Source: Pantoea deleyi
GTDB lineage: Bacteria; Pseudomonadota; Gammaproteobacteria; Enterobacterales; Enterobacteriaceae
Length of the DNA stretch: 64,000 bases
Reading direction: 5' to 3'
NCBI RefSeq assembly: GCF_022647325.1
Contig: NZ_CP071405.1
Span: forward strand, 2,108,001 to 2,172,000
The position numbers were made by a program, and so were the translations under genes. Shown here piece by piece: positions 4,695-57,408 of this stretch. The notes under the pieces were generated by a model that was given only the letters and a program-made list of their open reading frames with translations, ran no database searches and was not told the origin of the DNA. Every line of letters starts with the position of its first letter. Position 1 is the first letter of the stretch.

Positions 4695-4706
4695 TCAGGG
4701 TTTAGC

Positions 4707-4755: not shown

Positions 4756-4866
4756 CTGTTTCAATCCTAATGCTATGCGATCCGGAACGGCGGCGTGCCG
4801 TAAAGTCGCGGTTAATCCCTTCCTCAGACCCGCCACCCTCACGTTCAGGAACGTCAGCCCTGCTCA

Positions 4867-5021: not shown

Positions 5022-5106
5022 CGCTTTTTAACACCTTACATACAGACTTCTGCCCGAACACTCCGAACAGCCGACTCCCCTGCGTAAGGAAACGCCACCT
5101 CAGACC

Positions 5107-5260: not shown

Positions 5261-5346
5261 TTTTTAATTATCCCTCCGGCAAAGAGAGCTCAACCCAAAC
5301 GCCCCGCTCAGATCTTCTCACGCCCTCCAGAACGCCACCTCAGCCC

Positions 5347-5500
5347 TTAAAGCAGCACCCAGGCCCGACCGGGCAGGAACGGCATGCCTGAAGATAAAAG
5401 CGTCCGCGGCAGGGATGGCGCGGCCGATCCGCAGGGATGCGGGAATTCTTTGCGGTCAGGCAGGCCTTTCCTGACCCTGCACCCCGGCCACCCGCGAAGG
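5347..5500 (+). repeat. Structured intergenic repeat, copy 3 of 3
   Basis: Slightly more diverged: GCGGC replaces GCGCC beside the first GGGA-loop hairpin and the last stem flank reads GCGAAGG. The two GGGA loops and the terminal GGTCAGG/CCTGACC stem are kept. A partial echo (CACCAGGAATGGCATGG) follows at about 5547-5563. Nothing coding is seen between 5500 and the yjfF terminator. Confidence 0.8.
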
Positions 5501-5668
5501 TTTTCTTTGCAACGATAAAGCACTCACATAAAAAAATTGGATCCCCACCAGGAATGGCATGGCCTGTCAACGGCCTGCCGGGAGCGTCAAAATTGCTGAG
5601 CAATGAAAGTGGAACAGCGGCAAATCATGGGGGAAAAGGTTACGATGAGGGTGCTGCATCTGGCGCAG

Positions 5669-5695
5669 CAAAAAGGCGGCTCCTGAGAGCCGCCT
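5669..5695 (-). terminator. Intrinsic terminator of the ytfQRT-yjfF operon
   Basis: On the minus strand GAGGCGGCTC-TCAG-GAGCCGCC is followed by a U-run (A-run at 5670-5674 on the plus strand). It lies about 20 nt beyond the yjfF stop. Confidence 0.85.
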
Positions 5696-5715
5696 CTTAT
5701 CCCGAAACTGAACAA

Positions 5716-7715: not shown

Positions 7716-9228
7716 GTTGTACCCCTCCGTCCGCGATAGCATTGACGATCGACGCCACCGAAAGCTGCTCCAGCGGAATCTCTGCCACCTGCTTCAGATC
7801 GCGCATGATCAACACCCGATCGGCATAACCTACCAGCTCTTCGAGTTCAGAGGAGATCACCAGCAGCGCCAGACCATCGGCGCACAGGGATTCAATCAGA
7901 CGAATAATCTCGGCGTGGGCACCCACATCGATGCCGCGTGTGGGTTCGTCGAGGATCAGAAACTGCGGTTTCGTAACCAGCCAGCGCGACAGCAGCACCT
8001 TCTGCTGGTTGCCGCCCGATAGCAGCTCCACCGGCTGTTCGGCGTGCGGCGTGCGGATGCCCAGACTCTTGATAAAACGGTCGGCAATCGCCTGCTGCTC
8101 GCGCCGCTTAATCGGCCGTAACCAGCCGCGCTGCGCCTGCAGCGCGAGGATGATATTTTCCCGCACCGACGCCGCGCCGATAATCCCGTCCGTCTTGCGA
8201 TCTTCCGGACAAAACCCCATCCCCAGCTGCGAGGCTTTCGCCGGGTTGGGGATGCGCTGAACTTTGCCCTTGATCGTCGCGGTTCCGCGATCGGCCCGAC
8301 GAATACCAAACAGCACCTCCGCGGTTTCGGTTCGGCCCGATCCCAGCAGTCCCGCCAGGCCCACGACTTCACCCGGACGCACCGCGAGGTTAAACGGCTC
8401 GATGGTGCCTTTCCGGCCATAATCTTCAAACGACACCACCGGCTGATTACTGCGCAGCGTACTGCCCTGGCGCTGCAGCGCCGTCTCCAGCAGTTCACGC
8501 CCCAGCATCAGCTTAATTAGCTCGATCTGCGGCAGCGTGGCGGTGTCATGGGTGGCGATATACTGCCCGTTGCGCAGCACGGTAATCCGATCGGTAATCC
8601 GGTACACCTGGTCCAGAAAATGGGTCACAAAAATCAGGCTCATCCCGCGGGCTTTTAACTGCGCCATCAGGGTAAACAGCATTTCAACTTCGCTGGCATC
8701 AAGGCTGGCGGTCGGCTCATCGAGGATTAACACCTGCGCCGACAGGTCAACCGCACGGCAGATAGCAATAATCTGCTGCATCGCCACCGAGTAGTGGCCC
8801 AGCGGACGGGTGACATCGAGGGAAAAGCCGTAGTTCCGCATCAGAGCGTCGGCATCCCGCACCATCCGGCGACGGTCAATCAGGCCAAAACGGCGCGGCT
8901 CACGGCCAATGTAGAGGTTATCCGCCACCGACATGTTCGGCAGCATATTCACTTCCTGATAGACGGTGCCGATGCCCATCTCCTGCGCCTGCGCCGTATT
9001 GTGCGGCGTGATGGGCTTACCGTTCAGGGTAATGGTGCCGGCATCCCGGCTGTAAACGCCGGTCAGCACTTTGATCAGGGTGGATTTACCGGCACCGTTT
9101 TCACCCAGCAGCGCCATAATCTCCCCTTTGCGAATATCAAAAGAGACATTATTAAGGGCCTTAACGCCGGGAAAACCTTTGCTGATGCCGTGGATGGATA
9201 ACAGCGGTGTTTCACTTTGCGTGGTCAT
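7708..9228 (-). CDS. ytfR: Sugar ABC transporter ATP-binding protein YtfR
   Basis: ATPase with two ABC domains, powering the sugar importer. The N-terminal domain has Walker A GENGAGKST (~44-52), the Q-loop region YQEVNMLPNMSVADNL and Walker B VLILDEPTASLD. The C-terminal domain has a degenerate P-loop GLLGSGRTE, signature LSGGNQQKVLLSRWL and Walker B FLILDEPTRGIDVG, typical of the AraG/RbsA/MglA class. The start at 9228 (506 residues) follows GGAG by 8 nt; a GTG three codons upstream is possible. It is separated from ytfQ by an internal terminator-like hairpin that should lower its expression relative to the binding protein. Confidence 0.94.
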   Translation of the reverse strand: MTTQSETPLLSIHGISKGFPGVKALNNVSFDIRKGEIMALLGENGAGKSTLIKVLTGVYSRDAGTITLNGKPITPHNTAQAQEMGIGTVYQEVNMLPNMSVADNLYIGREPRRFGLIDRRRMVRDADALMRNYGFSLDVTRPLGHYSVAMQQIIAICRAVDLSAQVLILDEPTASLDASEVEMLFTLMAQLKARGMSLIFVTHFLDQVYRITDRITVLRNGQYIATHDTATLPQIELIKLMLGRELLETALQRQGSTLRSNQPVVSFEDYGRKGTIEPFNLAVRPGEVVGLAGLLGSGRTETAEVLFGIRRADRGTATIKGKVQRIPNPAKASQLGMGFCPEDRKTDGIIGAASVRENIILALQAQRGWLRPIKRREQQAIADRFIKSLGIRTPHAEQPVELLSGGNQQKVLLSRWLVTKPQFLILDEPTRGIDVGAHAEIIRLIESLCADGLALLVISSELEELVGYADRVLIMRDLKQVAEIPLEQLSVASIVNAIADGGVQHA

Positions 9229-9252
9229 TCTGCTCACTCCGCCTTACGTCAG

Positions 9253-9275
9253 GAAAAACCGCCCTGTGGGGCGGT
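9253..9275 (-). terminator. Intra-operon attenuating terminator between ytfQ and ytfR
   Basis: On the minus strand ACCGCCC-CACA-GGGCGGT is followed by five Us. It sits 30-50 nt after the ytfQ stop and about 25 nt before ytfR. Partial termination here would give more binding protein than ATPase and permease, a common arrangement in importers. Confidence 0.8.
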
Positions 9276-9304
9276 CTGCGGCTGGTCTGAGGCTGACGGG
9301 GGGA

Positions 9305-10261
9305 TCAGTAACCCATGCCTTTTTTGGTTTCCAGCTCCTTCTGCGCATCAGCAGGCAGGAACAGCTTCGACTCGGTCTTGATCACTTTGGGCGGCAGCGT
9401 GCCATCTTTCTTAAACTTCTCCAGCGCATCAAACGCCGGACCCGCCATATTCGGGGTCAGCTCTACGTTGGCGTTGGCCTCACCGGCCAGCATCGCTTTA
9501 TAGATATCCGGCACTCCATCAATCGAACCGGTCAGAATATCCTTGCCCGGTTTCAGGCCCGCTTCTTTAATCGCCTGGATGGCACCGATTGCCATATCAT
9601 CGTTGTGCGCGTAAACCATGCAGATGTTTTTGCCGTTGTTCTCCGCCTTGATAAAGCTCTCCATCACCTCTTTACCCTTACTGCGGGTAAAGTCACCCGA
9701 CTGCGAACGGATCACTTTGATGTTTGGATGGTTGCTGATGGCTTCTGCAAAGCCTTTCTTACGATCGATCGCCACGCTGGCGCCCACGGTGCCCTGCAGT
9801 TCCACCACGTTACACTGCTTGTCGCCCACGGTTTTCACCAGCCAGTCGCCGATCAGCTTGCCTTCCAGCACGTTGTCCGCCGTGACCACCGCCTGGTAGA
9901 GCGATTTGTCTTTCACCACAATTGCGCGGTCCAGCAGGTAAACCGGAATTTTGGCATCTTTTGCTTCTTCCAGAACCGGTTCCCAGCCGGTCTGCACGAC
10001 CGGGGCGATAAAAATAGCATCCACGCCCTGGGCGATGAATGAGCGGACAGCCTTTATCTGGTTCTCCTGTTTCTGCTGACCATCGGCGATCTTCAGGGTA
10101 ATACCGCGTTTTTTGGCTTCGCTTTTCGCGACGTTGGTTTCCGCCGAGCGCCAGCCAGATTCAGAACCGACCTGCGAGAAGCCCACCGTCATGTCCGCAG
10201 CGAGCACTGGGCCGGTTAACGCAGCGCTGACCAGCGTGGTCAGAAGTAAACGTTTCCACAT
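9305..10261 (-). CDS. ytfQ: Periplasmic sugar-binding protein YtfQ (galactofuranose type)
   Basis: Peripla_BP_4-family receptor; E. coli YtfQ binds galactofuranose and galactose. 318 residues with a signal peptide (MWKRLLLTTL...VLA, cleavage ~21). Diagnostic stretches shared with E. coli YtfQ: TVGFSQVGSESGWR, LKIADGQQKQENQIKAV, VVELQGTVGASVAIDRKKGF and MVYAHNDDMAIGAIQ. It is first in the operon. The upstream region holds a GalR/LacI-type operator and a CRP-like site, consistent with sugar control. Substrate assignment rests on similarity only. Confidence 0.95.
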   Translation of the reverse strand: MWKRLLLTTLVSAALTGPVLAADMTVGFSQVGSESGWRSAETNVAKSEAKKRGITLKIADGQQKQENQIKAVRSFIAQGVDAIFIAPVVQTGWEPVLEEAKDAKIPVYLLDRAIVVKDKSLYQAVVTADNVLEGKLIGDWLVKTVGDKQCNVVELQGTVGASVAIDRKKGFAEAISNHPNIKVIRSQSGDFTRSKGKEVMESFIKAENNGKNICMVYAHNDDMAIGAIQAIKEAGLKPGKDILTGSIDGVPDIYKAMLAGEANANVELTPNMAGPAFDALEKFKKDGTLPPKVIKTESKLFLPADAQKELETKKGMGY

Positions 10262-26877: not shown

Positions 26878-27081
26878 ATGAAATTTGATAACGAAGATGC
26901 TTTCAAGCTGGCCGTGGCGTTTATGAACCATAAAGAGAACGCCACCATCGCCAGCAGCTACTTTAAAACCTTTATCGACACCTATCAGAAATTTGATCGC
27001 TGGCTGAGCGCCTCTGATCCGGTCAGCGCGATGAAAGCGGAAAAAGCGGCCGCCAAAGCGGGCGAGGATTCCGTGCTCTGA
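26878..27081 (+). CDS. Small hypothetical protein, 67 aa
   Basis: Not recognised. Soluble, helical and charged (MKFDNEDAFKLAVAFMNHKEN...), with an Ala/Lys-rich C-terminus. ATG 26878 is preceded by AAGGGGAATGAGAG, a plausible ribosome site. First gene of the inserted block after mliC, from which it is divergent. The RpoS-type -10 upstream suggests stationary-phase expression (inference). Confidence 0.65.
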   Translation: MKFDNEDAFKLAVAFMNHKENATIASSYFKTFIDTYQKFDRWLSASDPVSAMKAEKAAAKAGEDSVL

Positions 27082-27393
27082 TGCCATCAGCCGGGGCCGA
27101 CGGCCTGTCGTCCCCGGCTGGCGCCCCTCATCTCCGGCAGCGTCGGGCTATTATCCGGTGACAAACCGTGTCCACTCCCGTAATGGCCGCTGACCGGGCC
27201 CGTTTATATTCCGTCCTCTTTTCTTTTATTCCGGCCATCAGCCCTGATCTCTGCGCGGCTATTAACGGCGGCTGGAATTTGCAATAAATGCGATTTTTTG
27301 GCGCGCCCCCCGCTAATTTCCCGCGCACCTGCCGTTTTTGTTTAAAAAGCCGCCACCGAAGCGTGAGGCGACCAGCAAATACGATAAAGCGGT

Positions 27394-27400
27394 CTATGCT
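27394..27400 (+). promoter_or_regulatory. RpoS-type -10 element (CTATGCT) before the lipoprotein pair
   Basis: CTATGCT lies 36 bp upstream of the start at 27436. The rest of the 354-bp gap (27082-27435) holds no credible gene. Confidence 0.35.
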
Positions 27401-27435
27401 GTAGAGGTCTGGATAAAATTCACGGAGTTGAAAAA

Positions 27436-27669
27436 ATGAAAATGAAATCCCTGTCGGCCATCGCTCTGCTGGCGCTTTCTTTAGGTACGCTGGCGGGTTG
27501 CGCCTCGAATCAATCGATTAAGACCACTGATGGCCGCACAATTGTTACTGATGGAAAACCCCAGATTGATTCAGATACGGGGCTGGTTTCTTATCGCGAT
27601 GCTCAGACCGGAAAAACCGAGCAAATTAATCGCAATGAGATTAGTAATATGAGTGAACTCGACAACTAA
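27436..27669 (+). CDS. YgdI/YgdR-type small lipoprotein (DUF903), copy 1
   Basis: 77-residue lipoprotein: signal peptide with lipobox LGTLAGC (Cys ~22), then the YgdI/YgdR domain with TTDGRTIVTDGKPQID and TGLVSYRDAQTGKTEQINRNE. Function unknown; family members sit in the envelope and have an Sm-like fold. The second copy follows 15 nt after its stop, so this is a tandem-duplicate operon. Confidence 0.87.
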   Translation: MKMKSLSAIALLALSLGTLAGCASNQSIKTTDGRTIVTDGKPQIDSDTGLVSYRDAQTGKTEQINRNEISNMSELDN

Positions 27670-27684
27670 TATAAGGTGAATAAG

Positions 27685-27915
27685 ATGAAAAAAGCGCTGA
27701 TTCTGCCTCTCGCCGCGTTGATCGGTATGACCGTATTAACCGGCTGCACCCGTACCAGCTATGCAATTCAGACCAATGACGGCCGGACCATCATCAGTGA
27801 TGGCAAGCCTTCTGAGTCTGATGCCGGCCTGCTGGCCTACACCGATGCCAACGGTGTGAAGCAACAGATCAATAAAGCAGACGTTAAAGCGGTTTCTGAA
27901 GTTCCGCACAAATAA
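27685..27915 (+). CDS. YgdI/YgdR-type small lipoprotein (DUF903), copy 2
   Basis: 76-residue paralogue of the previous gene: lipobox LTGC (Cys ~21), then QTNDGRTIISDGKPSESDAG and YTDANGVKQQINKADV. The ATG at 27685 was chosen over the GTG at 27676 because the signal peptide then starts MKKALILP and AAGGTG lies about 9 nt upstream. An intrinsic terminator follows. Confidence 0.87.
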   Translation: MKKALILPLAALIGMTVLTGCTRTSYAIQTNDGRTIISDGKPSESDAGLLAYTDANGVKQQINKADVKAVSEVPHK

Positions 27916-27935
27916 ACCTGCTGCTGTCGCCTGAT

Positions 27936-27967
27936 AAATAAAGCCGCCCGTGGGCGGCTTTATTTTT
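27936..27967 (+). terminator. Intrinsic terminator of the lipoprotein pair
   Basis: AATAAAGCCGCCC pairs with GGGCGGCTTTATT around a 2-nt loop, followed by T residues. The rest of the gap to 28318 shows no gene or clear signal. Confidence 0.9.
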
Positions 27968-28318
27968 GCCTGCAGCGACGGCGAAAGCGTCGCCGCACGG
28001 ATGTGACGGCATCGCTCTCTTCATCCGGTTTTTCTGTCGCGCATCGCGATGAATTTGACAAAAGGAAAGAAGCCGGGCTTTTTGCTTATCTGAATTTCAG
28101 GCCAGCTTGCCTCTTTTAACCACCCTGACTGTTCAGCCTTCGCCAGTCTCTCAATCTGTGCCTGATTTTATGCTTAGCTTTTAGCTGTTTATCGTTGCGC
28201 TTAAAGGTTCCGTTTATTTTCAGCAATTCTGCGCCTCCTGCCCCTGTCGCCGTGGGCTTTTAGTCCGGCGCGCGGTTCACTAAACTGTCAGTGTCGCTAT
28301 TTAATCAGGAGGTAGCAG

Positions 28319-28591
28319 ATGATTTATCATGAAAAAGATGTCGGCCATATTATTCTCGGGGAAGCCACCATTAATCTGGCCTTTGAAGAGCAGGAAATTA
28401 CCCTGGCGTCCCTGATTCGACAGCTGGGCGTGATGGCGGAGAACGAGCAGAGCGACGAGCGCGTTGCGCAGATTGCCGATGCACGTAACTGGCTGAAAAG
28501 TTTTGTGGACGCCTCTTCGCGCGATCGGGCCGAACTTAACTGGCTGGTCGAAACCGGGCAGGCACCGGCTTTCCTCAAAGATTACCGGTGA
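28319..28591 (+). CDS. Hypothetical protein, 90 aa
   Basis: Not recognised. Soluble, acidic, mostly helical (MIYHEKDVGHIILGEATINLAFEEQ at the start, in two parts; LKSFVDASSRDRAELNWL toward the end). It has a strong ribosome site (CAGGAGGTAGCAG) and a clean start at 28319. It lies just before an AriR-like gene but is separated from it by a 220-nt gap that has its own promoter-like dyad. Confidence 0.7.
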   Translation: MIYHEKDVGHIILGEATINLAFEEQEITLASLIRQLGVMAENEQSDERVAQIADARNWLKSFVDASSRDRAELNWLVETGQAPAFLKDYR

Positions 28592-28736
28592 TCTTTTGCC
28601 GTTCTGACGGTCGTTCTGCGCCGGGTGCCAGCCCGTTTTCTGGCACCCATCCGTCACGTTTCGCTTACCGGTTTTGCCGTTTCGCTGTCCCGATTTCCGG
28701 GCATGAATAAAAATCATCCGGACATTGCCGAAATAG

Positions 28737-28764
28737 CTGTACAGATCACTCGTTTTTGTATAAC
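28737..28764 (+). promoter_or_regulatory. Promoter dyad (TGTACA-N13-TGTATAA) before AriR-like gene 1
   Basis: CTGTACA (28737-28743), 13 nt, then TGTATAA (28757-28763), the latter overlapping a -10 TATAAC (28759-28764). The two half-sites form an imperfect inverted repeat. The same arrangement with the same 13-nt spacing occurs at 33866-33892 before the second AriR-like gene. MlrA, a MerR-family biofilm regulator, recognises TTGTACA-type inverted half-sites (recalled), and BluR is its relative. Confidence 0.55.
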
Positions 28765-28811
28765 TTCGCGCCTGACCGAACGTTTTTACACCACCTTTCA
28801 GGAAATAAACC

Positions 28812-29051
28812 ATGTACCCGAACCAGAGACTGCCGCGGACGGCAGACGATATTGCCCGTTATTTTAACGCGGCAAGCCTGCCTTCACAGCAAGAGACGCT
28901 GGGACAGGTGGTGGTTGAAATTCTGCATGCCGGAATGAATGTGAATCGCAAGTCGATTTGCACCAAGCTTCTGCTTCGGCTTGAAACCGCCTCGACAGAA
29001 GAGGAAGAGCGTCACTACCGTACGCTGATCGGCCTGCTGTTCGGGCGTTAA
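28812..29051 (+). CDS. AriR/YmgB/YcgZ-family small regulator 1
   Basis: 79 residues resembling E. coli AriR (YmgB), a dimeric helical protein affecting biofilm and acid resistance through the Rcs and stress network. The shared pattern is an N-terminal ADDIARYFNAA, a central LGQVVVEILHAGMNVNRKSIC and a closing LLLRLETASTEEEE, matching the AriR LGQAV...GDNVNNKNII...SLETTSD pattern. Start at 28812 after CAGGAAATAAACC. Its promoter dyad matches that of the second AriR-like gene at 34049. Family assignment is by eye. Confidence 0.72.
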   Translation: MYPNQRLPRTADDIARYFNAASLPSQQETLGQVVVEILHAGMNVNRKSICTKLLLRLETASTEEEERHYRTLIGLLFGR

Positions 29052-29237
29052 GCGACCGCCACCTGCTCTTTCTCCTTGATACCGGCGTCATGTTGCGCCG
29101 ACAGATTCCTGTGGCCTGCGGGCGGATCGGGATGATGAGGCGATTTTTGCCCGGTGAAAGGGCTTGGATGTGAGGATGAGGAGAAGCCCGTTGCGAAAGC
29201 GGCAGGCCGCAGAGGATGGCGGGCGTTCTGACCGCAA

Positions 29238-29852
29238 TTATCCCAGCACTTTCAGTGCCAGTGCCAGCGTCTCCTGCTCATTGGTCACGTCACCGACCTT
29301 GCCCACCACCCGCATACCAAAGGCGATGCAGAGGATCAGACCAGCTGCCGCTTCACTGTCCAGCGTATTATCGATTGAGCCATCCTTCTTCCCCAGCTCC
29401 AGCAGCGTCACCAGAAAGCGCTGATTACGCTGAACCACGTCGTTGATGCGCTGTGCCATCGCCGCATCCAGGGTTTGTAGCGCAATCGCGCTGGCGACGA
29501 CCAGACAGCCGCGCCGTCCCTCTGCTGCCCGGGCCGAGTCCAGATAGAACTGCAGGAGTTCGGTGACTTTTTCCCGTCCGCTGACGCAGGGCGCCAGACG
29601 ACGACGCAGATCGGCGTTACGCAGCGCCAGATAGCGCTCGAACACCAGCAGGAACAGCGAACGTTTATCTTTAAAGGCTTTGTAGATGCTGCCTGCGGAG
29701 AGGTTCATCGCCTCACCCAGATCGGTTATCGAGGCCGCGTGATACCCTTTTTGCCGGAAAACGGTCATGGCGTTATCCAGAGCCTGTTCGATATCGAACT
29801 CTCTGGGGCGTCCCCGCTCTCTGTTTTTATGCGCTATGGCTGTCGTGATCAT
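29238..29852 (-). CDS. TetR/AcrR-family transcriptional regulator
   Basis: 204 residues. The N-terminal TetR helix-turn-helix is clear: FDIEQALDNAMTVFRQKGYHAASITDLGEAM (in two parts), then LSAGSIYKAFKDKRSLF. The C-terminal ligand domain is TetR_C-like, with REKVTELLQFYLDSA and RRGCLVVASAIAL, reminiscent of the YxaF/LmrA subgroup. The start at 29852 is uncertain (weak ribosome site); an ATG 8 codons upstream is possible. No obvious target gene is adjacent. Confidence 0.88.
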   Translation of the reverse strand: MITTAIAHKNRERGRPREFDIEQALDNAMTVFRQKGYHAASITDLGEAMNLSAGSIYKAFKDKRSLFLLVFERYLALRNADLRRRLAPCVSGREKVTELLQFYLDSARAAEGRRGCLVVASAIALQTLDAAMAQRINDVVQRNQRFLVTLLELGKKDGSIDNTLDSEAAAGLILCIAFGMRVVGKVGDVTNEQETLALALKVLG

Positions 29853-30049
29853 CGTTACCGGTCTGAGATCGTGCATTCCTGTCAAAATCGACAGGGATTC
29901 TATCCCAGGCACGGGCATCAAGTATAGATGGCTGGCGCGACAGCGCGTCATCTGCACCCGTCCCGCCACCGGCCATGCTGCCCGCAGACCCCGTATCCGC
30001 TGGTTCTGCCCCCTCTCCGGCAGGGGCTCCGCCGTAGCCCAATTTGCGC

Positions 30050-30325
30050 TTATTCAGACAATAACGGTATCTCTGTGCTGCCTTTTTCTTCCTGCCCGGC
30101 GCGCTGCGCAGCATTGATTTTCATCAGCCAGAAGGTGAATTGCTTTATTAACAGGCTGGCATGATTTTCGTTATCCGCCTGGCATAAATAGAGCCGGGTT
30201 TTTACCGCGCTGCTATCGTCGATCGCATAGATCTCATAGTCGGTATGATGACGGGACAGGATGATGGTAGTGAAAGAGATGGCGGGCCACTGCCTCACTC
30301 TGGCTTCAAACTGGGTAAAATTCAT
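30050..30325 (-). CDS. Hypothetical protein, 91 aa
   Basis: Not recognised. Begins MNFTQFEARVRQWPAISFTT with alternating hydrophobic residues, followed by YEIYAIDDSSAVKTRLYL, suggesting a small mixed alpha/beta fold. AGGTAG lies before the start at 30325. It stands alone between a TetR gene and umuC; no partner is evident. Confidence 0.55.
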   Translation of the reverse strand: MNFTQFEARVRQWPAISFTTIILSRHHTDYEIYAIDDSSAVKTRLYLCQADNENHASLLIKQFTFWLMKINAAQRAGQEEKGSTEIPLLSE

Positions 30326-30521
30326 GATATCTACCTGGTTACAGACCTTAACAACCCGATGATTAACTGCTCATCGAACCAGGAAAAGCATAACCTCCCG
30401 AATCATTTTACGCGTGTTAAAAAAAGCTTTTAGCGGACGTCCTTCAGCGCCCCCTTCCCCCTTTTCAGGAAATGAAAGGGTGAACGCCTCTGCTGGCTTG
30501 ACCGAAACGGCCAATCGGTAA

Positions 30522-30541
30522 TACTGTATTTATATACAGCT
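30522..30541. promoter_or_regulatory. LexA box upstream of umuC
   Basis: CTG (30524-30526), N10, CAG (30537-30539) within TACTGTATTTATATACAGCT, a near-consensus SOS box (TACTGTATATATATACAGTA). It lies 17 bp before the leader ORF described next. Confidence 0.92.
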
Positions 30542-30558
30542 ATTATTAAGGCCAGGCT

Positions 30559-30675
30559 ATGCTCGTTTTCAGACCCGCAACATCTCACCCAGTTCTGCTC
30601 CCATCATGCCGCGCCCGTCACCGCATGACAGACCAGCAGGTTGCTGATTATCCACCGCAGGCTGCAGGTCGCTGA
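30559..30675 (+). pseudogene. 38-codon leader ORF before umuC, probable umuD relic
   Basis: An ATG at 30559, 17 nt after the LexA box and after TAAGG, opens a 38-codon ORF (MLVFRPATSHPVLL...). Its TGA (30673-30675) overlaps the umuC ATG as CGCTGATG, the same junction remembered for E. coli umuDC. The first seven residues, MLVFRPA, line up with E. coli UmuD MLFIKPA. Nothing else of UmuD is present. Most likely a umuD that lost its body by deletion; the alternative is a coupling ORF that arose by chance. Confidence 0.55.
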
Positions 30676-31937
30676 TGTTCGCCCTGGTTGATGTCAACGC
30701 CTTCTATGCCTCGTGCGAAACCGTCTTCAGGCCCGATCTGAGAGGAAAGCCCGTCTGTATTCTGAGTAACAACGATGGCTGTATTATCTCCCGCTCCGCC
30801 GAGGCAAAAAAACTCGGAATAAAAATGGGTGCGCCCTATTTCAAAATAAAAGATGAGCTGCAGCGCCTGAATGTGCACGTATTCAGCTCTAACTACACGC
30901 TCTACGCGGATATGAGTAACCGGATAATGACCACGCTGGAGGCGATCTCTCCTGCCGTTGAGATCTATTCAATCGATGAGGCCTTCGTCGATCTGACCGG
31001 GGTTCACCATTGCCGTGTGCTGGAAGAGTTCGGACACGAGATCCGTAACCGCATTAAGCAGGATACTCATCTGACCGTCGGTGTCGGTATTGCGCAAACC
31101 AAAACCCTGGCAAAACTGGCTAATCATGCCGCCAAAAAGTGGTCAAAAACGCGCGGTGTCGTCGATCTCTCCAGTGTGGAACGCCAGAAGAAGCTGATGG
31201 CGCTGATACCGGTGGAGGATGTCTGGGGCGTGGGTCGCCGCATCAGCCAGAAACTGAATGGTATGGGCATCATGACCGCAAAAGATTTAGCGGACCAGAG
31301 CACCTGGGTGATCCGGAAGCACTTCAATGTCGTGCTGGAGCGCACCGTCAGGGAGCTGCGCGGCGAGTCATGCCTGGATCTGGAGTCCTGCCCGCCCACT
31401 AAACAGCAGATCATGTGCTCCCGCTCCTTTTCAGCGCGCATCACGACTTATGCGGACATGCGGGAAGCGGTTTGCAACTATGCGGTAAGAGCGGCCGAGA
31501 AACTTCGTCTGGAGGGGCAGTACTGTCGCCAGGTGACCGTTTTTGTTCGCACCAGTCCGCATGCGGAGGGCGAAGCCTTTTATGGCAATCAGGCGATGGC
31601 GCAGTTACCGTTTCCGACCTGCGATACCCGTGACATCATCCGCGTGGCGATCGACGCGCTGAATCGTATCTGGCTGGAGGGCTGCCGCTACATGAAGGCG
31701 GGCGTCACGCTGGGTGACTTCTACAGCCAGGGCGTGACGCAGCTTACTCTTTTTGATGAGTTTCAGCCCCGCCCTGACAGTGAGGCGCTGATGCGCGTGG
31801 TCGATGGCCTGAACCAGAGTGGCAAAGCGAAGCTGTGGTTTGCCGGTCAGGGTGTCCAGAAGGCCTGGGCGATGAAGCGCGACATGCTCTCTCCGGCCTA
31901 TACCACCCGCTATCAGGATCTGCCTGTCGCAAAATAG
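30675..31937 (+). CDS. umuC: DNA polymerase V catalytic subunit UmuC
   Basis: Y-family translesion polymerase, active with UmuD'2 and RecA during the SOS response. 420 residues (E. coli 422). Catalytic motifs: FALVDVNAFYASCE (metal Asp ~6), YSIDEAFVDLTG (Asp-Glu ~100), and the helix-hairpin-helix VWGVGRRISQKLNGMGI (~180). The C-terminal TQLTLFDEF (~355) resembles the beta-clamp-binding motif. The upstream LexA box is SOS-type. Unusually, umuD is not upstream: it lies convergently downstream, and umuC is translated from the overlap with a short relic ORF. Confidence 0.96.
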   Translation: MFALVDVNAFYASCETVFRPDLRGKPVCILSNNDGCIISRSAEAKKLGIKMGAPYFKIKDELQRLNVHVFSSNYTLYADMSNRIMTTLEAISPAVEIYSIDEAFVDLTGVHHCRVLEEFGHEIRNRIKQDTHLTVGVGIAQTKTLAKLANHAAKKWSKTRGVVDLSSVERQKKLMALIPVEDVWGVGRRISQKLNGMGIMTAKDLADQSTWVIRKHFNVVLERTVRELRGESCLDLESCPPTKQQIMCSRSFSARITTYADMREAVCNYAVRAAEKLRLEGQYCRQVTVFVRTSPHAEGEAFYGNQAMAQLPFPTCDTRDIIRVAIDALNRIWLEGCRYMKAGVTLGDFYSQGVTQLTLFDEFQPRPDSEALMRVVDGLNQSGKAKLWFAGQGVQKAWAMKRDMLSPAYTTRYQDLPVAK

Positions 31938-32090
31938 CGGCAGCGTTGGCGAGCCAGCACCCGGCCGCTGAGACGTTCACAGAGCCGCGGCCGCACGGGT
32001 CACAGGCAGCCCCTGGATGGGTCAGTTCACGACCTGTTCGCGCGCGCTCTGGCGGAGAGAGGCGCTCTGCATGCCGCCGGAGAGATCGCC

Positions 32091-32127
32091 TGCCGGTGAG
32101 CCTGCGCGAACCTCAGGCTCACCGGCA
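32091..32127. terminator. 14-bp stem hairpin between convergent umuC and umuD
   Basis: TGCCGGTGAGCCTG (32091-32104) pairs perfectly with CAGGCTCACCGGCA (32114-32127) around a 9-nt loop. It sits in the 244-bp convergent gap. No T-run is present, so its action as a two-way transcription barrier is inferred from position. Confidence 0.6.
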
Positions 32128-32181
32128 ATGCGCCTCGCGCCCGCATCCGGGCGGCGGCGTTGCGTTAAACCGCGCACCGCA

Positions 32182-32601
32182 TCAGTGCGTCGCTTTAATC
32201 ACAAAGGTGACAACACCAAACACCTCCAGCACATCTTCGGTCCGGATAGCGATCGGTTTGAATTGAGTATTCATCGGCATCAGTTGCAGGCAGGGGTGAA
32301 GCTGAAGACGCTTAACGGTGAACTCGCCGTCGACGGCGGCGACCACAATATCGCCGTGGGCGGCGGTAAGGGAGCTGTCGACCACCAGCATATCGCCATC
32401 GTTAATGCCCGCCTCAATCATCGACTCGCCGCTGACGCGGACAAAATAGGTGGCGCTGGGATGCTGGACCATCAGCGCATTCAGATCGATGCGCTGCTCA
32501 ACATAATCCTGCGCCGGAGAGGGAAAGCCGCAGGGCACACGTTCGATATAGAGCGGCAGAGGCAGGATAGCGCGAATGTCCGCAGGTTTAATGAATTCCA
32601 C
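32182..32601 (-). CDS. umuD: DNA polymerase V accessory protein / SOS protease UmuD
   Basis: LexA-like self-cleaving protein; RecA-stimulated cleavage yields UmuD', which activates UmuC. 139 residues as in E. coli. The cleavage site Cys-Gly lies in VPCGFPSPA (~24-25). Ser60 is in [10 protein letters not shown] and Lys97 is in GEFTVKRLQ. It begins MEFIKPAD and has its own LexA box 22 bp upstream. It is convergent with umuC rather than heading a umuDC operon, so the two subunits are induced from separate SOS promoters. Confidence 0.96.
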
Positions 32602-32622
32602 AATTTCACTCCTTTTTCAGAT

Positions 32623-32642
32623 TACTGTATATAAATACAGTA
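32623..32642. promoter_or_regulatory. LexA box upstream of umuD
   Basis: TACTGTATATAAATACAGTA, CTG-N10-CAG, differs from the SOS consensus at one position. It lies just upstream of the umuD start on the minus strand. The rest of the gap (32643-32940) contains poly-T stretches and a CCGCT/AGCGG-type hairpin near 32870-32885 but no gene beyond the one at 32941. Confidence 0.93.
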
Positions 32643-32940
32643 ATAGCTATTCCCCCTTTTAATCAAGTGACCTGGCCCTTTTTTAAGTAAAGCCTCTGAT
32701 GACCCGACACTTTTTTTTAATCGCCCTTTTTTCATTGCCGGGATAGTAAACAAAAACGGGTTACTTTCAGCGCAGCGGTGAAATATTTCCGTCATCGGCT
32801 TACAGTAATGCCACTTATTAATGACGCCGTGAATGATTCTGACTTAAGGAAAATCTGACATCCGCTTTCCGGTCCGGAGAGCGGTTTGAATATGACCGGT
32901 GAGCGGGTTATTCTGCTTTTTTTTCAGGCATGGAGGAGTT

Positions 32941-33192
32941 ATGGCAGACGACGAGCGCATCAGAAAACTGGAAGAGACGGTGGCACAGCTAACGGTGGAG
33001 ACCACGGTATTAAAGGCGATACTGGGGCAGCAAATAGCGCTGAATAATCTCAATTACAAAGGCAAATTTGACGATGTACTGGCGGCGCTGGCGAAGGAAT
33101 ATGCCGACCGCGGACTGGACGAGGGAAATAATCAGGCCATTCATGATGCCCTGCGGCAGTATATTAAGTATGAGCCTCCCGGCATGGAATAA
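32941..33192 (+). CDS. Small coiled-coil hypothetical protein, 83 aa
   Basis: Not recognised. The N-terminal half (RIRKLEETVAQLTVETTVLK) has a heptad-like pattern that predicts a coiled coil; the rest is helical and ends KYEPPGME. ATG 32941 follows GGAGGAG, an excellent ribosome site, and a longer in-frame extension lacks one. Cytoplasmic. No functional neighbours; the umuD promoter lies divergently upstream. Confidence 0.68.
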   Translation: MADDERIRKLEETVAQLTVETTVLKAILGQQIALNNLNYKGKFDDVLAALAKEYADRGLDEGNNQAIHDALRQYIKYEPPGME

Positions 33193-33286
33193 ACGCCCTT
33201 CCGGCAGCGTCTGCCTGCCGGATTGAACCGGCACGGCTGAACGCTGCCCCGGCCTGCGGCCACCGCGTCAGGCGCACGTCCCGGCA

Positions 33287-33511
33287 TTACATTCCGCTGT
33301 CACTCTCCAGCGCATCCTGAATCGCATCGGCCAGATTCGCTATTTCATTCGCCACAGCCTGCAGATCCCAGGAGGTCTTCGAGCCGGTTGCGGAAGTTGA
33401 GGCGCTGACGGACTCTTTTGCGACAGAGAGCGCAGCCGCGACAGCAACCGCGCGTTTGTGTTGTTCCTGGGTGATGCCCGCAGCGGGGATCGCGAAATAG
33501 TCGTGGACCAT
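33287..33511 (-). CDS. Small hypothetical protein, 74 aa
   Basis: Not recognised. Ala/Ser-rich, helical (AVAVAAALSVAKESVSASTS), beginning MVHDYFAIPAAGIT. The AAGGAA ribosome site before ATG 33511 is good. The C-terminus (ANLADAIQDALESDSGM) is acidic. It lies convergent to the coiled-coil gene. A TGTACA-centred 16-bp palindrome lies about 136 bp upstream. Confidence 0.55.
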   Translation of the reverse strand: MVHDYFAIPAAGITQEQHKRAVAVAAALSVAKESVSASTSATGSKTSWDLQAVANEIANLADAIQDALESDSGM

Positions 33512-33646
33512 GATCGTTTCCTTGTAATGGATAAGGGGTCAACCTTAGCTGTCTGAACCGGAGGTGTGAAGTGAATTATGCTGAGCCGCGTGCCGGACGG
33601 ACAGGAATGCGACAGCCGGATACGATCCTGCACATTTTCCGCCCTG

Positions 33647-33662
33647 AAACCTGTACAGGTTT
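33647..33662. promoter_or_regulatory. 16-bp perfect palindrome AAACCTGTACAGGTTT
   Basis: AAACCTGT/ACAGGTTT is a perfect 8+8 dyad with TGTACA at its centre. It is not a LexA box (CTG and CAG are only 2 nt apart). It lies between the small minus-strand gene and the AriR-like gene 2 promoter. A second dyad, GATAGTT-N6-AACTATC, follows at 33780-33799. Both could be operators; the proteins that bind them are unknown. Confidence 0.5.
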
Positions 33663-33865
33663 TGCGGCGATCCGCCGTCAGAAACGCGGTTCAGCACCCT
33701 GCTGTAGCGGTAAAATATCCTGCATCGCCAGCCCCTGAAATCCCCCGCTCACAGAGAATAATCATAACCCATTGTATTTGATAGTTTAATAGAACTATCG
33801 CCATAATCGCCCTTAAAGATGCATTTCAGATACACCACCGACCAGAAAATTTTTGTCAAATTTCG

Positions 33866-33893
33866 TTGTACAAGTTTGCCAATCTTGTATAAC
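33866..33893 (+). promoter_or_regulatory. Promoter dyad (TGTACA-N13-TGTATAA) before the leader of AriR-like gene 2
   Basis: TTGTACA (33866-33872), 13 nt, then TGTATAA (33886-33892), overlapping -10 TATAAC (33888-33893). TTGTAC also serves as a -35-like element with 16-bp spacing. Half-sites GTTGTACAA and TTGTATAAC form an inverted repeat with one mismatch. Spacing matches the dyad at 28737 exactly. Confidence 0.6.
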
Positions 33894-33899
33894 TTTACC

Positions 33900-33987
33900 T
33901 CGTGATATTAAATCACTCGTAACGAAAGGTGCCTTGCACCGCATCTGAAGGTGTTGTGGATTTCCACCTTCAGATGCAATTTTTTTT
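33900..33987 (+). ncRNA. Candidate ~88-nt sRNA or transcription attenuator upstream of AriR-like gene 2
   Basis: Transcription from the promoter at 33866-33893 should begin near 33900. The RNA would contain GTGAT-N5-ATCAC (33902-33916), GGTGC-CTT-GCACC (33928-33940), and a terminator with a 13-bp perfect stem GCATCTGAAGGTG / CACCTTCAGATGC (33941-33953, 33965-33977) followed two bases later by eight Us (33980-33987). The AriR-like CDS starts only 62 nt beyond. So this is either a stand-alone small RNA or a leader whose readthrough controls the gene. No match to a known sRNA is recalled. Confidence 0.55.
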
Positions 33988-34048
33988 GCGTCAGTCGCTT
34001 AGCGGACCGCAATAAACCTGTCTCCCCAATTTTTTATGAGGCCTGACC

Positions 34049-34306
34049 ATGCAAACAACGATGAACACAGAGTCTCAGATTTCTGATTACTTCATGAACT
34101 CTGGTACCGCGCTGAGCACGGAACAGCAGGTCATTACTGCCGTCCATGCCGAACTCGCTCGCGCAAAAGCCCACGTTTCCGATAAAGATATCGTACTGGG
34201 CCTGATTCACCACCTGGAGAGCGAACGTGACGTGATGAAGCAGGATATCTACCGTCAGGCGCTTGAACACGTTCTTCAGCGCGCGTCGGTGACCAGCGCC
34301 AGCTGA
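34049..34306 (+). CDS. AriR/YmgB/YcgZ-family small regulator 2
   Basis: 85 residues with the AriR-type pattern: ISDYFMNSGTAL at the N-terminus, then AHVSDKDIVLGLIHHLESERDVMKQDIYRQ, given here as a conserved region spanning ~48-77 in which IVLGLIHHLESE parallels AriR IILSLIHSLETT. Such proteins act in biofilm and acid-stress control in E. coli. ATG 34049; an ATG four codons later is possible. Its upstream dyad promoter matches that of AriR-like gene 1 and its leader has a strong terminator. Confidence 0.78.
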   Translation: MQTTMNTESQISDYFMNSGTALSTEQQVITAVHAELARAKAHVSDKDIVLGLIHHLESERDVMKQDIYRQALEHVLQRASVTSAS

Positions 34307-34366
34307 TAACCTGTGTCTGTTATGAGGGAACGCGAATTAGCACGGATGCATTTCCCGACCGGAATC

Positions 34367-34390
34367 GGCCCCATTTTTTGGGGCTTTTTT
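34367..34390 (+). terminator. Intrinsic terminator of AriR-like gene 2
   Basis: GGCCCC, ATTTTTT loop, GGGGC followed by six Ts, 60 nt after the stop codon. Confidence 0.85.
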
Positions 34391-34454
34391 ATTTCTGCCC
34401 CTCCCCGCACCTGCATCCCCTTCCCGGCACCGTGCTGACGCCGCACACATAACC

Positions 34455-34461
34455 CTATATC
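34455..34461 (+). promoter_or_regulatory. Possible RpoS-type -10 (CTATATC) before katN
   Basis: CTATATC lies in ACCCTATATCGCTCC, 136 bp before the katN start. Assigned by pattern alone. Confidence 0.25.
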
Positions 34462-34596
34462 GCTCCGCTTAAAGGCTATTTTGCCGATTATTTCACCATT
34501 AATCCCGGTTAATTGCTCTCGTTCCGCTTTATTTATCCGTTATCTGTGTCCAGGCTTTTTCTGCATCCACTGCAAACACAGACGAGGAAAATAATC

Positions 34597-35445
34597 ATGT
34601 TTCATCATTCATCAAAACTTCAATTCCCGGTTCGTGTGGAAAAACCCGATCCTGAATTTGCCATGCTGCTCCAGCAGGCCATCGGCGGCGTCGAGGGTGA
34701 GATTCGTGTAGCGATGCAATATTTTTTCCAGGCGATGGGCGCGCGGGGAGATGTCCGGATCCGCGATCTGCTGATCTCGACCGCGACGGAAGAGCTGAGC
34801 CATATCGAAATGCTGGGCTACGCCGTGGCACTGAACCTTGAAGGCGCCCCGCTCTCGTATCAGGAAGCGTCGGCGAAAGATCCGGTGGTCAACGCCATTC
34901 TGGGCGGCATGAATCCGCGCCATATCCTCTCGTCGGGGCTGGCGGCGATGCCGGTCAACGCCAACGGCATGCCGTTTGATATGAGCCACATCTACGCCTC
35001 CGGCAACGTGGCCGCCGACATGCTGGCGAACGTCACCGCAGAAGCGACCGGCCGCGTCCTGGCGACCCGGCTCTACAACATGACCGAAGATAAGGGCATG
35101 AAGGATTTCCTCTCCTTCCTGATCGCCCGTGACACCCTGCACCAGCAGCAGTGGCTGGCCGTCATCGAAGAGATGGGCGGTCTGAACGCCTCGCTGCCGA
35201 TCCCGAACAGCTTCCCGCAGGAGCATGAAGCGCAGGAGCACGCCTATTACTGCCTGAATACCTCGCTGGATAAGCCGCTGCCGGAAGGCCGCTGGAGCAG
35301 CGGTCCGGCTTACGATGGCCGGGGGCAGTTCAGCGCGAAACAGCAGCCCGATATTCTGGGCGATGAGCCGCTGCTCGGTAACGCCCGTCCCGGTTCCGGC
35401 GCCCAGTCAGAGCAGATTGACGGCATCACCCCACCAAAACCCTGA
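34597..35445 (+). CDS. katN: Non-haem manganese catalase (KatN type)
   Basis: Dimanganese catalase breaking down hydrogen peroxide. 282 residues. Mn ligands of the family line up: Glu35 in GGVEGEIRVAM, Glu66 and His69 in ATEELSHIEMLG, Glu near EATGRVLATRLYN and His in ARDTLHQQQWL. The start at 34597 follows GAGGAAAATAATC; a longer in-frame ORF starting at 34513 lacks support. A YghA-like SDR gene follows on the same strand after 63 nt. A haem catalase, katE, is 3 kb away, so the block has two catalase types. Confidence 0.93.
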   Translation: MFHHSSKLQFPVRVEKPDPEFAMLLQQAIGGVEGEIRVAMQYFFQAMGARGDVRIRDLLISTATEELSHIEMLGYAVALNLEGAPLSYQEASAKDPVVNAILGGMNPRHILSSGLAAMPVNANGMPFDMSHIYASGNVAADMLANVTAEATGRVLATRLYNMTEDKGMKDFLSFLIARDTLHQQQWLAVIEEMGGLNASLPIPNSFPQEHEAQEHAYYCLNTSLDKPLPEGRWSSGPAYDGRGQFSAKQQPDILGDEPLLGNARPGSGAQSEQIDGITPPKP

Positions 35446-35454
35446 TCGCGCACC

Positions 35455-35477
35455 GGTCCGGGCCTGATGCCCGGACC
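35455..35477 (+). other. Hairpin between katN and the SDR gene
   Basis: GGTCCGGGC-CTGAT-GCCCGGACC is a perfect 9-bp stem 10 nt after the katN stop. No U-tract follows, so it may protect or limit the upstream message rather than stop transcription. Confidence 0.55.
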
Positions 35478-35508
35478 AGCTTACCCTGTCTTTTATGGAG
35501 AAAACGTC

Positions 35509-36372
35509 ATGTCATCCACTCAGCGTCCACAGCCCCCTTTCGCAGAACAGCAGCAGAGCTGGCCTGGCAGCACCGCCGCGATGCAGCCTCAGCCCGATCA
35601 CGGCGAAGAGAGCTATCAGGGTTCAGGCCGTCTGGCGGGTAAAAAAGCGATTATTACCGGCGGCGACTCCGGCATCGGCCGGGCCGTTGCCATTGCGTTT
35701 GCCCGCGAAGGTGCCGATGTGCTGATTTCCTATCTTGATGAGCATGAGGATGCGCAGGATACCGCCCGGCGAGTTGAGGCAGCGGGCCAGAAGGCGCTGC
35801 TGGTGCCCGGCGACATTACCGAGGCGTCACACTGCAACGCGCTGGTCGACCAGGCAGTCGAGGCGTTTGGCGAAATCCATATTCTGGTGAACAACGCGGC
35901 CTATCAGATGACGCGCGAATCGCTGGATGCGATCAGCGATGATGAGTTTGATCGGACGATGAAGACCAACCTCTATGCGATGTTCTACCTCAGCAAAGCG
36001 GCCACGCGGCATATGCCGGCGGGCGGGTCGATCATTAATACCGCCTCCATCAATGCCGACCAGCCGAAGCCGAAGCTGCTCGCCTACTCCGCCACCAAGG
36101 CCGCCATCGTGAACTTTTCCGGCGGCCTGGCGGCCCTGCTGGCTGAAAAAGGGATCCGGGCCAATGCTGTCGCACCCGGTCCGATCTGGACGCCGCTGAT
36201 CCCCTCGACCATGCCGGTTGAGCAGGTGAAGAATTTCGGCAGCGAAGTGCCGCTGCAGCGTGCCGGTCAGCCTGCGGAGCTGGCACCCACCTATGTGATG
36301 CTGGCCAGCGATGAGTCCAGCTACATTTCAGGGGCCACCCTCGCCGTGACCGGCGGCGTCGCCATTATTTAA
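35509..36372 (+). CDS. Short-chain dehydrogenase/reductase (YghA-like)
   Basis: NAD(P)-dependent oxidoreductase, 287 residues with an N-terminal extension (~1-45, SSTQRPQPPFAEQQQSWPG) typical of YghA/general stress protein 39-type SDRs. Rossmann motif TGGDSGIGRAV (~53-63), NNAA (~135) and the catalytic YSATKAA (~201-207). It starts at 35509 after GGAG. Cotranscription with manganese catalase points to general stress; the substrate is unknown. Its stop codon overlaps the 3' end of the convergent uvdE-type gene by 8 nt. Confidence 0.9.
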   Translation: MSSTQRPQPPFAEQQQSWPGSTAAMQPQPDHGEESYQGSGRLAGKKAIITGGDSGIGRAVAIAFAREGADVLISYLDEHEDAQDTARRVEAAGQKALLVPGDITEASHCNALVDQAVEAFGEIHILVNNAAYQMTRESLDAISDDEFDRTMKTNLYAMFYLSKAATRHMPAGGSIINTASINADQPKPKLLAYSATKAAIVNFSGGLAALLAEKGIRANAVAPGPIWTPLIPSTMPVEQVKNFGSEVPLQRAGQPAELAPTYVMLASDESSYISGATLAVTGGVAII

Positions 36373-56196: not shown

Positions 56197-57408
56197 ATGT
56201 TGTCGACAATCATCTATCGCAGCCACATTACTGAACATGTGAAGCTTGAGACTCTGGCTGATCTGGCGCGTAAAGCGAACAGTATCAACCGCTCATCAAG
56301 CGTCACCGGCATTTTACTGTTCAATGGCACGCATTTCTTCCAGCTGCTGGAAGGCCCGGAGGCAGCAGTCAAAGCGGTTTACAGCCGGATTTGCCGGGAT
56401 CCGCGCCACCATAATCTGGTTGAGCTGCTGCGCGATTACGCGCCGTCGCGCCGCTTTGGTCACGTCGGCATGGAGCTGTTCGATCTGCGGCAGCATGACA
56501 AAGAGCGGGTGCTGGAAGCGGTTCTGGAAAAATGTACCAGTAAGTTTCAGATGACCTATACCGACCGGGCGCTGCAGTTCCTGCGTACCTTTGTCGAGGC
56601 ACGGGAAAAAGAGAACTATTTTGAGATCCCCGCCGCCAGCAACTGGCAGTTCATTCGCGATGCGTCAGAACAGCGTGCAGGCGACGCGGCGCTGGTGGAT
56701 GCAGATGCGATCACCTTCGCTTTCCAGCCCATCGTGGATCCCTTTGCCTGTGAAATTGTCTCGCTGGAGGCCCTGCTGCGCGGCCCGCGCGGGGAATCCC
56801 CGCTCGACTATTTTGCCCGGCTGACACGCGATGAGCTTTATCTGGTCGATCTGAGATCGAAAAAGAACGCCTTTGCTCAGGCGCAAAAGCTGGGCATTGA
56901 GGGAATGACGCTGTCGATCAATCTGCTGCCGATGACCCTGGTCACCGTACCTGACGCCGTGACCTTTTTGCTGAAGGAGATTGCGGCGCACGGTCTGGTG
57001 CCGGAGCAGGTCATGGTGGAATTCACCGAGAACGAGATTATTTCCCAGCCTGAAGCCTTTGAAGCCGCTATCAGGCAGCTGAAGGCCGCCGGTATCAGCC
57101 TGGCGCTGGATGATTTTGGTGCCGGGTTTGCCGGGCTGTCGCTGCTGACCCGCATCCAGCCAGACAAGATCAAGATCGACCGCGCCATTATCTCGGATGT
57201 GCATAAAAGCGGCCCCAAACAGGCGATCATTCATGCCATTCTGAAGTGCTGCGCCTCACTGGAGATTGGCGTGATCGCCGAAGGCATCGAACAACCGGAA
57301 GAGTGGATGTGGCTGGAAGCGGCCGGTGTGACGCAGTTCCAGGGGTTTCTGTTCTCTAAACCGGAACTCAATGGCATCGGGGCGGTGGCCTGGCCGGAGC
57401 TGAACTGA
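56197..57408 (+). CDS. bluF: BLUF-EAL photoreceptor, candidate active c-di-GMP phosphodiesterase (BluF/BlrP1-like)
   Basis: 403 residues. BLUF domain at 1-~95: Tyr7 in STIIYRSHI, Asn at ~30 in RKANSINRSS, and Gln49 in HFFQLLEG are the flavin-site residues. A linker then the EAL domain (~165-400): SLEALLRG, NLLPMTL, EFTENEI, LALDDFGAGFAGLSLL, PDKIKIDR, IAEGIEQPEEW and FQGFLFSKP. The spacer and flanking residues follow E. coli BluF closely, but E. coli has EAI, DHFG, KIS and AMGV at those positions and has lost PDE activity; here EAL, DDFG, KID and AEGIE are all present. No bluR-like gene is in the window. Confidence 0.9.
   Translation: MLSTIIYRSHITEHVKLETLADLARKANSINRSSSVTGILLFNGTHFFQLLEGPEAAVKAVYSRICRDPRHHNLVELLRDYAPSRRFGHVGMELFDLRQHDKERVLEAVLEKCTSKFQMTYTDRALQFLRTFVEAREKENYFEIPAASNWQFIRDASEQRAGDAALVDADAITFAFQPIVDPFACEIVSLEALLRGPRGESPLDYFARLTRDELYLVDLRSKKNAFAQAQKLGIEGMTLSINLLPMTLVTVPDAVTFLLKEIAAHGLVPEQVMVEFTENEIISQPEAFEAAIRQLKAAGISLALDDFGAGFAGLSLLTRIQPDKIKIDRAIISDVHKSGPKQAIIHAILKCCASLEIGVIAEGIEQPEEWMWLEAAGVTQFQGFLFSKPELNGIGAVAWPELN

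Follow-up and report, generated by a model that had tools for sequence, protein, structure and literature searches.

A BluR/MlrA-type MerR protein as the likely reader of two dyads in Pantoea deleyi, with a scattered regulon of YcgZ/AriR-type genes and a putative small RNA

The closest described systems come from Escherichia coli where, according to the available portions of PMC3509220, the MerR-type protein BluR is a repressor whose GTACA half-sites lie over the ycgZ promoter and which is antagonised by BluF. BluR has one physiological target operon, ycgZ-ymgABC, together with residual binding at csgD, and it has been proposed to have arisen by duplication of MlrA and to have acquired a new target (PMC3509220). 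MlrA likewise binds half-sites of the GTACA type in E. coli, and its csgD box is quoted in the same paper from Ogasawara 2010 as AAAGTTGTACA(12N)TGCACAATTTT. A further point of comparison is class II LitR, a repressor relieved by a blue-light photoreceptor, for which the operator consensus T(G/A)TACA-N12-TGTA(C/T)A has been given (PMC9758184). The portions of these two papers that were available contain no description of a regulon dispersed over the genome or of an RNA with an operator of this kind. The present study concerns two dyads of related sequence and identical spacing in a 64,000-nucleotide stretch of the Pantoea deleyi genome (contig NZ_CP071405.1, here called C1, positions 2108001-2172000; hereafter the window); the genome, G000, comprises 4.68 Mb in four contigs. 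A first-pass annotation had placed both dyads ahead of AriR/YmgB-like genes and had suggested that one MerR-type regulator encoded elsewhere reads them, with a BLUF-EAL protein of the window as a possible light partner. The features in question are listed in Table 1.

It is likely that the two dyads are operators of a single autoregulated MerR protein of the BluR/MlrA type, probably a repressor, whose regulon consists of scattered YcgZ/AriR-type genes and small RNAs. As judged from sequence comparison, the dyad, a single MerR regulator located elsewhere and a dispersed regulon all appear well supported. The dyad is genuine and above chance: at up to two mismatches, the window contains three matches (two of them being one site read on both strands) versus 0.23 expected from shuffles, and none of 100 shuffles reached three. 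The coordinates, the letters and the identical spacing were as previously annotated. The promoter hexamers read by eye are CTGTAC (-35) and TATAAC (-10) separated by 16 bp at dyad 1, and TTGTAC and TATAAC, again separated by 16 bp, at dyad 2; these elements were assigned by eye because a sigma-70 consensus scan listed the promoter of neither dyad.

Table 1. Positions within the window of the two dyads and of the genes discussed with them
Feature	Position	Strand	Evidence
Dyad 1, CTGTACA-N13-TGTATAAC	28737..28764	+	one of 5 exact genome sites
YcgZ-like gene, 79 aa, YmgB/AriR family	28812..29051	+	PF10798 33.7 bits
Dyad 2, TTGTACA-N13-TGTATAAC	33866..33893	+	one of 5 exact genome sites
Putative small RNA gene, ends approximate	33898..33987	+	fold z -5.5 (L004:1532-1621)
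AriR-like gene, 85 aa, beyond the RNA's terminator	34049..34306	+	PF10798 64.6 bits
BLUF-EAL protein, 403 aa, 22 kb from dyad 2	56197..57408	+	BLUF 3.1e-25, EAL 6e-51

Over the whole genome, the exact pattern TGTACA-N13-TGTATAA occurs five times versus zero times for the reversed pattern, and all five sites stand ahead of small open reading frames (ORFs), four belonging to the YmgB family (PF10798) and one unassigned. One PF10798 gene, out of seven PF10798 matches in the genome, lies downstream of each of the sites at C1:1849219, 2136738, 2141867 and 2546423. The site at C1:2055616 precedes a 78-aa ORF (L002 type) that has no Pfam YmgB match and whose likeness to YcgZ/AriR appears only in our own alignment and profile. 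Across a sample of 40 genomes of the genus, 156 exact sites were identified versus one match to the reversed pattern, with at least one site in 38 genomes; the two genomes lacking an exact site are G037, which is 74% complete, and G014, which has only 2.4 Mb. Details were taken for 150 of the 156 sites, the other six being uncounted. A YcgZ/AriR-type ORF, defined as lying on the same strand as the site and at most 900 bp downstream, followed 118 of these 150 sites with a first profile that included five ORFs of the window's own genome, again 118 when L002 was omitted from the seeds, and 109 when E. coli YcgZ and AriR served as the sole seeds. Such an ORF was found in one of 372 control windows, and that one (L017) overlaps a site of the window's genome. 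The motif is thus not scattered in unrelated places.

The base before TGTACA is C at 78 of the 150 sites and T at 72, and the two types of site differ in what follows them. A YcgZ/AriR-type ORF stands behind 77 of the 78 C sites at a median offset of 74 bp, and an RNA-like element of about 90-100 nt was found at 67 of the 72 T sites versus none of the 78 C sites (Fisher p 4e-37, uncorrected for relatedness). The window contains one site of each type. The product of the gene behind dyad 1 is identical to E. coli YcgZ at 43 of 78 aligned residues versus 22 of 79 for AriR, while that of the gene behind dyad 2 is identical to E. coli AriR at 29 of 83, and the named relatives of the latter protein were from Pantoea at all eight loci (79-89% identity). 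Both ORFs pass the Pfam YmgB cut-off, so this part of the first-pass annotation stands; however, the distance from dyad 2 to the start of ariR is 155 nt, and this interval contains an RNA-like element with a terminator. Regarding dyad 2 as a plain ariR promoter is therefore an incomplete view, because the small RNA (sRNA)-like element comes first, and this element under the same operator is the finding that the present analysis adds to the dyads.

The candidate regulator gene lies about 600 kb away, outside the window, at C1:2741340-2742071 and has a product of 244 aa. Approximately 80 bp upstream of its start, at C1:2741261, is TTGTACA-N13-TGTACAA, a perfect palindrome with one mismatch to the motif. 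This palindrome precedes the gene at 29 of the 29 fetched genus loci for which the start was located, and at the thirtieth when the leader was read (30 of 30). One close orthologue per genome is present in all 40 genomes, with 78-100% identity and a broken copy of 71% in G014; a second, distant match to the regulator query (18-26%) appeared in four genomes of the genus. The earlier suggestion of a single MerR regulator located elsewhere thus agrees with a BluR/MlrA-type homologue that is found throughout the sample and whose promoter repeats the half-sites of the dyads at equal spacing. In the reduced genome G014 (L259, L260), the regulator match is partial and has two stop codons, and the BLUF search gave no hit. 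The single RNA copy of this genome stands behind an operator with one mismatch, and its terminator stem looks damaged by eye. This is an apparent case of joint decay of the circuit. In G037, the regulator is present and the searches for BLUF and the RNA gave no match.

The regulator is 62.6% identical to E. coli BluR versus 53.5% to MlrA, and over its N-terminal 75 residues it agrees with BluR at 62 positions versus 51 for MlrA. In a tree of 26 rows, it lies within a bluF-linked clade of 12 rows (96/98), apart from five yehW-linked MlrA proteins (100/98); four Pantoea rows were labelled yehW, and a yehW match was later found in all four. The place of the MlrA branch could be an artefact because this branch is long. 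As with mlrA in E. coli, the gene adjoins a convergent gene for a YehW-like permease (158 of 243 residues identical), and a yehW match stands beside the regulator at all 30 genus loci. Its Pfam domains are MlrA_helical and MlrA_C, and the RxxD motif is absent from its C-terminal part, the sole occurrence being RQFD at residue 40. Among genes fetched from other genera, three of four bluF-linked genes had a similar upstream palindrome (with a spacing of 13 or 15) and none of four yehW-linked MlrA genes had one. Palindromes were also present at L305, L306, L314 and L315 (L306 being yehW-linked and placed near Pantoea in the tree), and in E. coli the bluR promoter contains this palindrome at a spacing of 14 bp (L043:4115). 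A CsgD query matched none of the 40 genus genomes at E 1e-20, in a search run without a positive control.

Compared to the E. coli BluR-BluF-ycgZ-ymgABC system, Pantoea shares a BluR-like MerR protein, targets of the YcgZ and AriR types, promoters overlain by half-sites of the GTACA type, a regulator gene that itself has a palindrome in its promoter (N14 in E. coli, N13 in Pantoea) and, in many genomes of the genus, BLUF-EAL proteins near the sites. It differs in that the targets are scattered single genes rather than one operon, that the regulator occupies the mlrA locus whereas E. coli bluR stands beside bluF, that the regulon includes an sRNA-like element, and that the target spacing is N13. 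The contiguous bluR-bluF-ycgZ-ymgAB arrangement does not exist in G000, where regulator and targets are far apart; since this feature and, for the BLUF-EAL protein of the window, the degenerate EAL domain, both defining for E. coli, are not found, the Pantoea system may be described as a variant working like that of BluR. The resemblance to MlrA lies in the locus beside yehW, the type of half-site and the MlrA Pfam domains, while the sequence is nearer to BluR, the C-terminal RxxD is missing and the spacing is 13 rather than 12. Class II LitR has the same half-sites, but its operator is N12 versus N13 at both window sites (N12 sites of the genome were not searched), and its photoreceptor is a short LOV protein (PMC9758184).

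The RNA element of the window folds into three hairpins, at approximately 33902-33916, 33928-33940 and 33941-33977, followed by a U run at 33980-33987, and ariR starts about 60 nt past its end. Fold z-scores of five RNA copies ranged from -4.3 to -5.5. In an alignment of 31 non-redundant copies out of 66, the window copy among them, the consensus retains hairpins 2 and 3, and hairpin 1 appears in single folds only. The two stems covary: six of 16 pairs have changes on both sides (3.3 in shuffles, with four of 500 shuffles as high), 37 covariation cells were counted versus 11.7 in shuffles (none of 500 as high), and the pairing is lost when the structure is slid along the alignment. Among the stretches that never vary are AACG, located in the linker, and TGGATTT, located in the terminator loop. 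A covariance model identified 97 copies in 39 of the 40 genus genomes, including that of the window (C1:2141891-2141986, E 2.9e-20, a copy that is among the 31 used for the model). With strict filters, an order-wide search found the RNA in four of 295 genomes, all of this genus; a laxer search of the family with one genome per genus (E up to 0.05) found it in five of 40, the window's genome included, so that the RNA is not strictly confined to the genus. Searches of Rfam, which includes the E. coli sRNA RprA, with an E-value limit of 1 gave no family matching the RNA, either in window positions 27000-36000 or in nine related loci. The Rfam matches obtained at E up to 1 (BjrC1505, Phe_leader, flpD and miRNA families) fall off the RNA and under the gathering scores.

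An AriR-type ORF follows 40 of the 67 RNA copies at the examined sites, and the other 27 stand alone: on the strand of the site, the next 900 bp contain no ORF of the YcgZ/AriR type, and the same hairpins are kept. An own promoter, an intrinsic terminator made of a hairpin and a U run, and the stand-alone copies are, at the level of sequence, features of an Hfq-type sRNA; they would fit a discrete transcript that may act in trans. Two candidate pairings were considered and rejected. The RNA linker (TTCGTTA) can pair with 12 of 30 regulator leaders, all of them among the 14 loci at which the regulator shares 90-100% identity with that of G000, and it was rejected as a conserved target because the pairing is absent from all other leaders; the terminator loop (GAAATCC) pairs with none of 77 YcgZ-type leaders. 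In L005 (1640-1672) and relatives (L051, L056, L113, L137 and others), an extra hairpin lies between the RNA terminator and ariR and is possibly a second attenuator or RNA; by eye, its CTGTCC loop is conserved, its stems vary and a T run is often present. Among the literature matches listed, judged by titles and abstract openings, nothing dealt with the regulon or the RNA in Pantoea, and papers on E. coli ycgZ were present (PMC5491885, PMC9604211, PMC6900184). A catalogue of 615 RNAs exists for P. ananatis, as seen in the available part of PMC6749038, and the RNA may be among these, unnamed. In E. coli, RprA is the sRNA of the Ymg/Rcs pathway (PMC3509220, available portion) and is comparable in that the same type of signal leads to a small RNA, although it is reached indirectly via Rcs whereas the Pantoea element has the operator in its own promoter.

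BLUF genes are present in 37 of the 40 genus genomes. Within 5 kb of an exact site lie 29 of 77 BLUF genes, in 19 genomes, versus 0.7 expected under random placement (the count uses 77 of 80 rows, leaving out two rows of G001 and one fragment row of G005, and is likewise uncorrected for relatedness), and this clustering supports the candidate light link. At L284, L285 and L286, from two other genera, a BLUF-EAL gene (57-64% identical to BluF) is divergent to ycgZ and ariR, and the motif is tied to the canonical BluR arrangement because the ycgZ promoters at these loci carry the exact N13 version. The BLUF-EAL protein of the window, a candidate light input, is identical to E. coli BluF at 233 of 402 residues (58%). 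On contig C2 of G000 (3279-10182), two BLUF genes flank a MerR gene of another type, a 260-aa open frame, and several genomes of the genus likewise have BLUF genes in pairs, at a distance of 6-7 kb.

There are several alternative explanations for these patterns. It is very improbable that the shared dyad reflects only duplicated promoters of a paralogous family that no MerR protein recognises. Most targets are indeed paralogues and the half-sites coincide with the promoter hexamers read by eye; however, the same half-sites and spacing recur at all 30 promoters of the unrelated MerR gene and before stand-alone RNAs, most positions of the N13 core vary while the half-sites (which the search pattern fixes) are kept, and half-sites of this type are bound by MlrA and BluR in E. 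coli (PMC3509220). A different MerR protein could be the cognate regulator, for example the one encoded at position 8190 of contig C2 between BLUF genes at 3279 and 9910, and in other families the motif stands beside a MerR gene that is approximately 36-42% identical to the Pantoea regulator over 115-128 residues (L268, L272, L275 and L293). This is improbable given that the regulator query finds the C1 gene alone in G000 at E 1e-10 and that the C1 gene, with its palindrome, is present throughout the genus sample, although no search aimed at the C2 protein was made across the genomes that carry the motif. As for the mode of action, the neighbouring yehW, the Pfam domains and the ability of MerR proteins to activate from the spacer would suit an MlrA-like activator rather than a BluR-like repressor. 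Such an activator is nevertheless unlikely, because the 16-bp spacer read by eye is shorter than the 19-20 bp of typical MerR promoters (PMC3509220), the protein falls within the bluF-linked clade, and E. coli BluR is itself a repressor.

A further alternative is that the hairpin RNA is only a cis attenuator, i.e. a terminator/anti-terminator in the ariR leader without the role of an sRNA gene of its own. An AriR-type ORF follows the majority of the copies, the distance from terminator to ariR in the window is short, and many leaders of the L005 type have, by eye, a second hairpin before the ATG, but the 27 stand-alone copies keep the same hairpins, and a purely cis role is for this reason rather unlikely. 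The reading of the dyads as operators of the C1 MerR protein with a light-linked regulon also has to be set against several results that do not favour it. At up to two mismatches, G000 has 29 matches versus 27 for the reversed pattern, which is no enrichment, so only exact and one-mismatch sites are informative. Three of the seven YmgB-family genes of G000 (C1:3055453 and two at C3:34533-35568) have no exact site listed nearby, and five of the 150 genus sites (one of two in L062, and those in L119, L161, L193 and L218) fit neither target type. The upstream DNA of 19 further RNA copies carries an exact site in three cases, one mismatch in seven, two in three, three in three and at least four in three, and the further pair types in the RNA alignment show no excess (13 versus 12.4 in shuffles). 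The statistics on BLUF genes and on T and C sites take no account of relatedness. In the E. coli bluR-ycgZ locus, the N13 pattern at up to three mismatches gives seven matches versus 6.1 expected, none of them at the ycgZ promoter, and the GTACA halves are closer together there. Finally, the nearest BLUF gene in G000 is 22 kb from dyad 2, and the protein of the window has EALLR, LDDFGAG and IKIDRA where BluF has EAIVQ, IDHFGAG and IKISQE. A BLUF-EAL protein is thus present as first claimed, but it is less BluF-like than was implied because its EAL motifs look intact; judging from these motifs, it could be an active BlrP1-type phosphodiesterase and not a pure antirepressor.

In the proposed mechanism, the MerR protein from C1 would bind both dyads and the palindrome in its own promoter and would most likely act as a repressor; bound protein would block RNA polymerase because the half-sites cover the -35 and -10 elements of the target promoters. 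The regulon would comprise the gene of the regulator itself, single genes of the YcgZ type that follow CTGTACA sites at about 74 bp and, immediately behind TTGTACA sites, the structured small RNA; the AriR-type gene that often comes after the RNA would presumably be reached by read-through of the terminator. Release of the protein, possibly via a BLUF blue-light sensor as in E. coli, would lead to small connector proteins and the small RNA being made together. It is possible, and proposed here only tentatively, that this is a blue-light and biofilm regulon in which a repressor of the BluR clade, standing in mlrA's place, directly controls its own multi-copy family of small RNAs along with dispersed YcgZ/AriR proteins. 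If so, the target set of the BluR type would be ancestral, already in existence before mlrA was duplicated, which bears on the published idea that BluR gained its ycgZ target after that duplication, and light would have a direct RNA output rather than one via Rcs and RprA. The same kind of switch as in E. coli appears to run a scattered, genus-wide regulon that includes an RNA missing from Rfam. Pantoea is often found on leaves, and since the operators and the RNA are defined and the candidate regulator is a single gene, light or biofilm control in this genus becomes directly testable.

A few minor observations concern sites and structures outside the two target types. The sites in L119, L161, L193 and L218 are close to the 3' end of a gene in convergent orientation, which looks by eye like one for a KGG-repeat (YciG-like) stress protein; a terminator-like hairpin separates site and gene. 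In other families of the order (L268, L272, L275 and L293), the exact motif occurs just upstream of a ybgA-like gene, which in L272 has 2-thiouracil desulfurase and DUF1722 domains. Within the window, a strong bidirectional terminator-like hairpin (27910-27967 / 27934-28071) follows a DUF903 lipoprotein gene; it gives weak, below-threshold Rfam matches and is probably an ordinary terminator.

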